A stretch of DNA of 64,000 nucleotides from Terriglobia bacterium. GTDB taxonomy: Bacteria; Acidobacteriota; Terriglobia; Terriglobales; Acidobacteriaceae. The stretch lies in contig JAIQGF010000019.1 of the NCBI GenBank assembly GCA_020072845.1, forward strand, positions 1 through 64,000, in the 5' to 3' direction. A program made the position numbers and the translations under genes. Under the pieces are notes generated by a model. That model was not told the DNA's origin and did not search any database. It saw nothing but the letters and a program-made list of their open reading frames with translations. The stretch's first letter is position 1, and each line of letters opens with the position of its first letter. Below, piece after piece: positions 21,231-48,248 of this stretch.

Positions 21231-21651
21231 CTTTTTCAAGGCTTCAGGCTCCAGGCGTCTGGCTTCAGGCCGGAAATTCTCGCACATCGTCGAAAAGTGG
21301 TGACCACAGCGCCGCAGGCGCGGCAGAGCCTAGCCCGGCACGTAAGTGCCGGGACTCCGCCTAACAAATGTTCCTGAGTCCCGTAGGAGTCTGTGTCGTA
21401 ACCTCAAGGTGATGAAAAAAGTGGTCCGAAGCACGCGAAATCAGCCCGCGAAGCGGGCGCAATTCGTTAGCCCACCGCGGCAGCGGTGGGGAAAGTGGAT
21501 CAATATCGCAGAGCGCCAGCGGCGCGGCACACTTACGACACAGACTCCGTAGGGACGGCACCAACCACACAATGGTTCGCATCCTGAGCGGTTGGGGTAG
21601 TTGTCTGAACCACAAAATCTTGCCTGAGCCCTACGCCTGTAGCCTGAAGCC
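21231..21651. other. argG-argH gap filled with repeats
   Basis: The 421-base gap holds no convincing gene. From left to right it has a GGCTTCA array (21238-21272), two hairpins (GCGCCGCAGGCGC at about 21309 and CCGGCACGTAAGTGCCGG at about 21334), copy 1 of the 162-bp structured element (21386-21548) and a GCCTGAAGCC array that abuts the argG stop codon. Confidence 0.7.
21386..21548. repeat. Structured terminal-inverted-repeat element, copy 1
   Basis: Ends are a perfect 16-bp inverted repeat, GGAGTCTGTGTCGTAA (21386-21401) against 21533-21548. Inside are hairpins CCCGC-GAA-GCGGG (about 21454), CCCACCGC-GGCA-GCGGTGGG (21471-21490) and GCGCC-AGC-GGCGC (about 21513). Compared with copy 2 at 41532, both arms of the terminal stem and both arms of the central hairpin have changed together. 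There is no transposase; the element is about 163 bp. Confidence 0.85.
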
Positions 21652-37440: not shown

Positions 37441-37539
37441 TGGCGGAAGCGTGTCGGAGTCGAACCGACCCTCGGCAGCGCAAAGCTGTCGAGCGCTGGT
37501 TTTGAAGACCAGGAGGATCACCGGACCCCATGCGCTTCC
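37441..37539 (-). tRNA. selC: tRNA-Sec (UCA anticodon)
   Basis: A 99-base selenocysteine tRNA. The minus-strand sequence starts GGAAGCGC and ends CGCTTCC-G-CCA, with CCA encoded. The D-arm is the long form (GGGGTC-CGGT-GATCCT), the anticodon stem CTGGT/ACCAG holds loop CTTCAAA with anticodon TCA (reads UGA), the variable arm is long (about 25 bases) and the T-arm is GGTCGG-TTCGACT-CCGACA. The sequence is very close in layout to E. coli selC. It implies that the organism makes selenoproteins; selA, selB and selD are not in this window. Confidence 0.96.
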
Positions 37540-41496: not shown

Positions 41497-41531
41497 TGGT
41501 TCGAGTCTTGCGTCGTCAGTCGTCGGTCTTC

Positions 41532-41693
41532 AGAGTCTGTGTGAGAACTCACTTTCGGAAGCGCAGTGGTCCAAGCGCACCCACGATCCAGCCGCGGAGC
41601 GGCGGAACTCGTTAGCCCAGCGCGGCAGCGCTGGGGAAAGTGGAACAGAATTATCTAGCGCCAGCGGCGCGGTACAGTTCTCACACAGACTCT
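41532..41693. repeat. Structured terminal-inverted-repeat element, copy 2
   Basis: The most complete copy. Terminal arms AGAGTCTGTGTGAGAACT (41532-41549) and 41676-41693 are an exact 18-bp inverted repeat. Internal hairpins are CCGC-GGA-GCGG (about 41592), CCCAGCGC-GGCA-GCGCTGGG (41616-41635) and GCGCC-AGC-GGCGC (about 41658). It lies inside CAGTCGT/CGACTG arrays that are themselves inverted around it (41505-41531 and 41697-41728). It occupies nearly all of the peroxiredoxin-phzF gap. Confidence 0.9.
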
Positions 41694-41733
41694 TCAGGCC
41701 TGGCGACTGACGACTGGAGACTGGCGGCGATCT

Positions 41734-47915: not shown

Positions 47916-48142
47916 TAGCACAGGGTTCAAAAGTCGTTCTTGGGAAGGGCACGGCGGAACCTGTCCCGAGCGAAGCCGAGGGAGCCGTGCCGCCGAACCC
48001 GCAAGAATACTGGGATTTAGCCCCTGAGGGATTAACCTCCAACGCCCTGGCCGACTTCTGAAACCAGTTCTAGGAATAATTCCGCTTTCAGCTTCGACCA
48101 ATGAATCCGTTGTCAGTTTCGAGCAGCAATTCCGCCGAAAAT

Positions 48143-48248
48143 CCAGCCGCGGAGCGGCGGCATTCGTTAGCCCAGCGCGGTAGCGCTGGGGGAAGTGGAA
48201 CATAATTATCGAGCGCCAGCGGCGCGGCACAGTTCTCACACAGACTCT
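48143..48248. repeat. Structured terminal-inverted-repeat element, copy 3 (left end lost)
   Basis: From CAGCCGCGGAGCGG to the right arm AGTTCTCACACAGACTCT (48231-48248). The spacing from CGTTAGCCC to the right end is 83 bases, the same as in copy 2. The central hairpin is CCCAGCGC-GGTA-GCGCTGGG. The left terminal arm is absent and replaced by unrelated sequence. Confidence 0.8.

Follow-up and report, generated by a model that had tools for sequence, protein, structure and literature searches.

A probable MITE with IS1182-type ends and a REP-type hairpin body containing the Acido-Lenti-1 motif in Acidobacteriota

The window analysed here, the whole 64,000-nucleotide stretch at positions 1 to 64,000 of contig JAIQGF010000019.1 from a Terriglobia bacterium, contains a recurring palindromic sequence of about 160 bp, which raises the question of what kind of element this is and whether its paired stems reflect a constraint on DNA or on RNA. 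The element is very probably a MITE with IS1182-type ends and a REP-type body, a reading that rests on sequence comparisons of its ends, target duplications, target sites, nesting, empty sites, body identity and association with Y1 genes.

Copy 2, placed by its sequence and by genome-wide BLAST, is full-length (160 bp, 41533..41692, plus strand) and runs from GAGTC to GACTC. These are the true bounds of the element, which is 160-161 bp long, because the extra bases outside them are duplicated target, TTCA in copy 2 and CGTAG in copy 1. The left terminal inverted repeat (TIR) of copy 2, GAGTCTGTGTGAGAACT, spans 17 bp (41533..41549, plus strand) and exactly matches the ends of an intact transposon, L205, discussed below; the right TIR (41676..41692, minus strand) is its exact reverse complement. 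The target-site duplication (TSD) TTCA is read on the left at 41529..41532 and on the right at 41693..41696, enclosed in turn by the arms of the target hairpin, GTCGTCAGTCG..GGTC at 41512..41528 and GGCC..CGACTGACGAC at 41697..41714, which were traced from the sequence and the corresponding locus of genome G003. Three hairpins make up the body. H1 (GCCGC-gga-GCGGC, 41591..41603) and H3 (GCGCC-agc-GGCGC, 41658..41670) were delimited by a per-sequence hairpin parse, and H2 (CCCAGCGC-ggca-GCGCTGGG, 41616..41635) by the hairpin parse and covariation. H1 and H2 together constitute a minus-strand match to RF01687, Acido-Lenti-1 (41590..41635; cmscan 52.1 bits, gathering score 37). Folded as single-stranded DNA, 41528-41697 reaches -55.5 kcal/mol (z -9.1), with none of 200 shuffles as stable. 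The closed outer stem that had been proposed is explained as the transposon TIR; a four-way junction is possible in single-stranded form, and is unneeded as an explanation. H1-H2 lies between two directly repeated copies of a GTGG(A/T)(A/C)C box, at positions of about 33-44 and 108-118 in alignment A1 (about 41565-41576 and 41640-41650 in the window), and the first box is near-invariant across genera despite its position outside the hairpins. Copy 2 lies 36 bp past the stop of a peroxiredoxin-like gene, and the copies are intergenic. Elsewhere in the window, a selenocysteine tRNA is located at 37445-37539 on the minus strand (66.8 bits).

Copy 1 (21387..21547, plus strand), identified from its sequence and the match of its body to the Y1 unit L062, is also full-length and carries the TIR variant GAGTCTGTGTCGTAAC. 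Its TSD, CGTAG, lies at 21382..21386 and 21548..21552, within the target GTCC-CGTAG-GGAC. Direct reading bears out several claims of the sequence-only reading: the arms of copies 1 and 2 are exact reverse complements, H2 differs on both sides, with CCCACCGC/GCGGTGGG in copy 1 and CCCAGCGC/GCGCTGGG in copy 2, and H1 differs between the two as described. Copy 3 (about 48141..48247, plus strand; sequence and BLAST) had been credited with the same ends and length, a claim that fails, as it is 5'-truncated and retains H1, H2, H3 and the right TIR; its left arm is missing in full, along with about 55 bp. A solitary REP matching RF01687 (21308..21353, minus strand, 54.7 bits) precedes copy 1 by 33 bp, in the gap that separates an argH-like from an argG-like gene; it has no IS1182-type ends and forms the hairpin CCCGGCAC-gtaa-GTGCCGGG.

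The supposed family of three copies is far larger, with 46 BLAST matches to the element and 107 matches to the RF01687 core across the whole genome, the core being present in all three window copies and in the solitary one. Two genomes of the same genus, G001 and G002, have 105 and 95 RF01687 matches, the sister family has almost none, and collection of copies beyond this genome, as had been suggested, returned close variants in many other Acidobacteriota. The elements are short, non-coding and multi-copy and bear terminal inverted repeats, as MITEs do. Three end types occur among the extracted copies, GAGTCTGTGTGAGAACT, GTGTCTGTGTCATAGCT and GAGTCTGTGTCGTAAC, and both arms vary together, since both must fit one transposase. 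Copies of subfamilies B and C (TIR GTGTCTGTGTCATAGC / GAGTCTGTGTCGTAAC) show a 5-bp duplication, and the search for an autonomous partner of their ends found none. Some copies, including L059 (contig C11, 214424-214799), L052 and L056, contain body units duplicated in tandem, giving versions of 203-375 bp. Alignment of class I with class II bodies scores 8, against a shuffle mean of -31 (sd 9), which suggests common descent with replaced hairpins; independent capture is the alternative.

Short direct repeats stand directly outside GWGTC...GACWC in many copies. The search for target duplications proposed by the sequence-only reading covered 53 elements of this genome and of other acidobacterial ones and gave exact TSDs in 28 (21 of 4 bp, 7 of 5 bp), where 2.9 are expected from mismatched flanks. 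A recognisable TSD is absent in about half of the copies, a loss that is expected for old copies yet weakens the rule. In many cases the TSD coincides with the loop of a hairpin that was already in place and whose arms form the flanks, as in CCCGGCAC-GTCA / GTCA-GTGCCGGG and CCCAGGAC-GTAA / GTAA-GTCCTGGG. The 5-bp subfamilies are inserted in GTCC-CGTAG-GGAC or GTCC-CGCAG-GGAC. Of 50 copies, 11 have arms around the 4-bp TSD that are complementary at 7 or more of 8 positions, where the expectation is 1.3. The element therefore shares the palindromic target that is a trait of the IS1182 family. One copy in G001 is nested inside the TTCA loop of another element's H2, and its flanks, when joined, reproduce the sequence of uninterrupted relatives, the empty site. 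Copy 2 of the window has no counterpart at the orthologous locus of G001, G002 or G003, and G003 keeps a hairpin there that has identical arms and no interruption (GTCAGTCGCCG..CGGCGACTGAC; GTCAGTCG...CGACTGAC). The REP hairpins are cargo as well as landing sites, and copies can therefore nest.

A class-wide search with the element ends found one pair 1,398 bp apart, and the reversed control pattern gave no matches. The pair bounds L205, an intact 1,398-bp IS1182-family transposon in Acidobacteria gp13 AA73 with TIRs identical to the 17-bp element ends. Its transposase of 414 aa scores 322 bits with the NCBIfam IS1182 model (NF033551, cut-off 270) and contains Pfam DUF772 and DDE domains. L205 itself has a hairpin target, GCCGCCC-TAAA-GGGCGGC, in whose loop it sits between two copies of TAAA, and ends of its type also bound short elements with other bodies (L194, L200, L211, L212). 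In the family-member genome G006, short translated fragments beside GAGCCTGTGTGAGAAC look IS1182 transposase-like by eye. Within the genome studied here, a protein search for IS1182 transposases related to P0001 gave no matches, paired element ends are separated by no more than about 400 bp, and no autonomous partner emerged by ends, Pfam DUF772 or protein search; the helper is therefore inferred from other species, and present-day mobility of the element is putative. The copies here are probably relics, or reliant on an outside helper. The proposal of a non-autonomous mobile element is supported. Two candidate helpers were set aside: a DUF772 match on contig C10 has unrelated ends and appears IS5-like by eye, and an IS630-like open frame just inside the left end of L144, at the end of contig C99 of G001, is more likely a second insertion into the copy. 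In G033, three contigs (L151-L153) break within a repeat that ends in GAGTCTGTGTGACAAC, with a reading frame starting MPYIPYSPNQA, probably a multi-copy IS1182-family transposon.

The body has a different affiliation. It corresponds to the H1-H2-H3 ends that stand, inverted relative to each other, on either side of Y1 genes of the IS200-like Y---Q--HH type in this genome and in relatives. Nine Y1_Tnp genes occur in the genome, all outside the window, and the Y1 unit L062 (C11:45515-45835; Y1 protein of 147 aa) is bounded by H1-H2-H3-like ends, one of which shares 80% identity over 91 bp with the body of copy 1. Relatives repeat this geometry with other sequences (H1 of 5-6 bp with a 3-nt loop; H2 CCC...GGG of 8 bp with a 4-nt loop; H3 of 5-7 bp), in the order H1, H2, H3, Y1 gene and then the mirror image. 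Matches to RF01687 lie on both sides, inverted, for 9 of the 12 Y---Q--HH Y1 genes read, and for 0 of 4 NP-type Y1 genes in this genome. Two of the NP-type genes, L066 and L067 (C9:183346 and C7:41540), have another long inverted repeat (AGGTTGCCCCACCCTTGTCGCTCC...) on their flanks. A Verrucomicrobiia Y---Q--HH gene is flanked in a similar manner, with RF01687 scores below threshold (32 and 29 bits), and weak matches also lie beside Y---Q--HH genes in Verrucomicrobiia and Saprospiraceae genomes (L324, L325). On H1-H2 of the element, RF01687 scores 42-53 bits, above its gathering score of 37. The GTAG/GT[AG]G motif is absent from the hairpin foot in alignment A1, where H2 is preceded by TTAG, ATAG, GCAG, ACAG or AAAG. 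The suggestion of a REP-associated transposase held in part: Y1 (TnpA-REP-like) genes exist in the genome, and the cognate Y1 protein reaches 64.8 bits with NF033573 (IS200/IS605, cut-off 55) and fails the REP-associated model NF047646 (19.2 bits, cut-off 80). Most likely, Acido-Lenti-1 represents a fragment of transposon DNA and not an sRNA.

Covariation was measured on 48 aligned elements (A1), with counts that include related copies, so that the events are not independent. For H2, 46 cells are changed on both sides, and covariation is 0.363 against 0.100 when shuffled (0/500) and at most 0.029 with slid partners; for the TIRs it is 0.186 against 0.090 (0/500). The compensatory changes seen by the sequence-only reading are thus genuine. 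MAFFT misplaces H3 between lineages, so this hairpin was excluded from the column-based measure and parsed in each sequence separately. From one lineage to another, the variable segment of the H2 stem is exchanged without loss of pairing. Change in RNA helices usually passes through G-U pairs, which appear as A-C on the opposite strand. Among 384 H2 pairs, 382 are Watson-Crick and none is G-T or A-C; H1 has 2 G-T and 4 A-C pairs, and H3 has 2 and 1, so that neither type predominates in these two stems. Without an excess of G-U, the constraint looks like that of a DNA palindrome.

This test gives no support to selection on a folded RNA, the other part of the earlier proposal. A structured non-coding RNA family, multi-copy by chance and covarying through RNA folding, would account for the RF01687 matches in all copies, the strong covariation and the very stable fold, but it has to contend with the missing G-U pairs, the arrangement of the hairpins as inverted pairs around Y1 transposase genes, the TIRs and TSDs, and 107 copies in one genome with nearly none in the sister family; it is highly improbable, and an RNA function is not needed to explain the element. 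Movement by a Y1 (TnpA-REP/IS200-like) enzyme alone, as a REPIN/BIME-like element whose outer arms are part of a larger hairpin, agrees with the identity of the body to a Y1 unit end and with the Y1 genes in the genome. Y1 (IS200/IS605) transposition is not known to make target duplications of 4-5 bp, and the TSDs lead us to reject Y1-only movement; the same ends also bound an IS1182 transposon and short elements with other bodies, and the NF047646 score is far below its cut-off, which leaves this explanation very unlikely. The intergenic positions, with copy 2 close behind the peroxiredoxin-like gene, could suggest that recombination has dispersed a passively duplicated palindrome or an intrinsic terminator. 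TSDs, empty sites and the nested insertion contradict it, as do neighbours that differ between copies and an occupancy that is lineage-specific, reducing its probability to practically nil.

For the preferred MITE with IS1182-type ends and a REP-type body, a DDE transposase of the L205 type would recognise the inverted repeats and attack the two loops of an extruded cruciform, whence the duplicated loop. The Y1 transposase would recognise the body as single-stranded DNA, and may still do so; derivation from, and perhaps continued recognition by, this enzyme would explain why the hairpins are kept as exact palindromes. A bolder version, tentative and on balance doubtful, is an element of two enzymes, in which the ends are DDE (IS1182) substrates on double-stranded or cruciform DNA, the body is still a Y1 single-strand substrate, body hairpins are swapped for those of the resident Y1 in each lineage, and REP landing pads let both systems spread each other.

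The IS1182 family, including IS1272/TnSha1, resembles the element in its TIRs (through L205) and in its hairpin or palindrome targeting. Hairpin targeting is known for this family, and IS1272 deletes or replaces the stem-loop with no TSD (PMC4923244, PMC5678879), a point counted against the loop-duplicating IS1182 reading. The element, unlike IS1272, encodes no transposase, and its target loop is duplicated (4-5 bp) and not replaced or deleted; a loop-duplicating route is drawn as variant 6c of the model in PMC5678879. Loop-duplicating hairpin insertion is new, and a literature search combining IS1182, MITE and hairpin returned no match. RUP, Correia/NEMIS and ERIC are likewise short, non-coding, intergenic and multi-copy with TIRs and TSDs, but the present element adds a hairpin-loop target and a REP body. 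REPs, REPINs, TIRYT and TIRtrons share high-copy palindromes flanking a Y1 gene, and repeated TIRs of Koribacter TIRYT genes have been on record since 2013 (PMC3116915, PMC3733652); the element differs by lacking the GTAG foot, by its three-hairpin unit and by being wrapped in DDE-type TIRs with TSDs. TnpA-Y1 subclass 1.2, defined by Y---Q--HH, is described as having, in general, no secondary structures at its ends and as found mainly in Cyanobacteria and Bacteroidetes (PMC6006769), whereas the flanked Y1 genes here share its signature and have symmetric triple-hairpin ends, in Acidobacteriota. Acido-Lenti-1 was described as RF01687 by Weinberg 2010 (PMC2864571), and H1-H2 matches it above gathering; instead of a free-standing sRNA, it would be a DNA transposon end, one module of a longer element. 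What is new is its assignment, as terminal repeat, to Y1 transposases for which such ends had been described as missing, and no link between Acido-Lenti-1 and a transposase was found in the available portions of the founding paper or of a 2026 paper (PMC13298647), which still treats these motifs as possible protease regulators in Tannerella.

The analysis offers a direct, testable answer to the identity of Acido-Lenti-1 and supplies terminal structures for Y1 transposases that were believed to have none. Dozens of natural insertions fit cruciform-loop attack, a step that for the IS1182 family has so far only been modelled. Rfam-based annotation would have to be revised for up to about 100 'sRNAs' in each acidobacterial genome.
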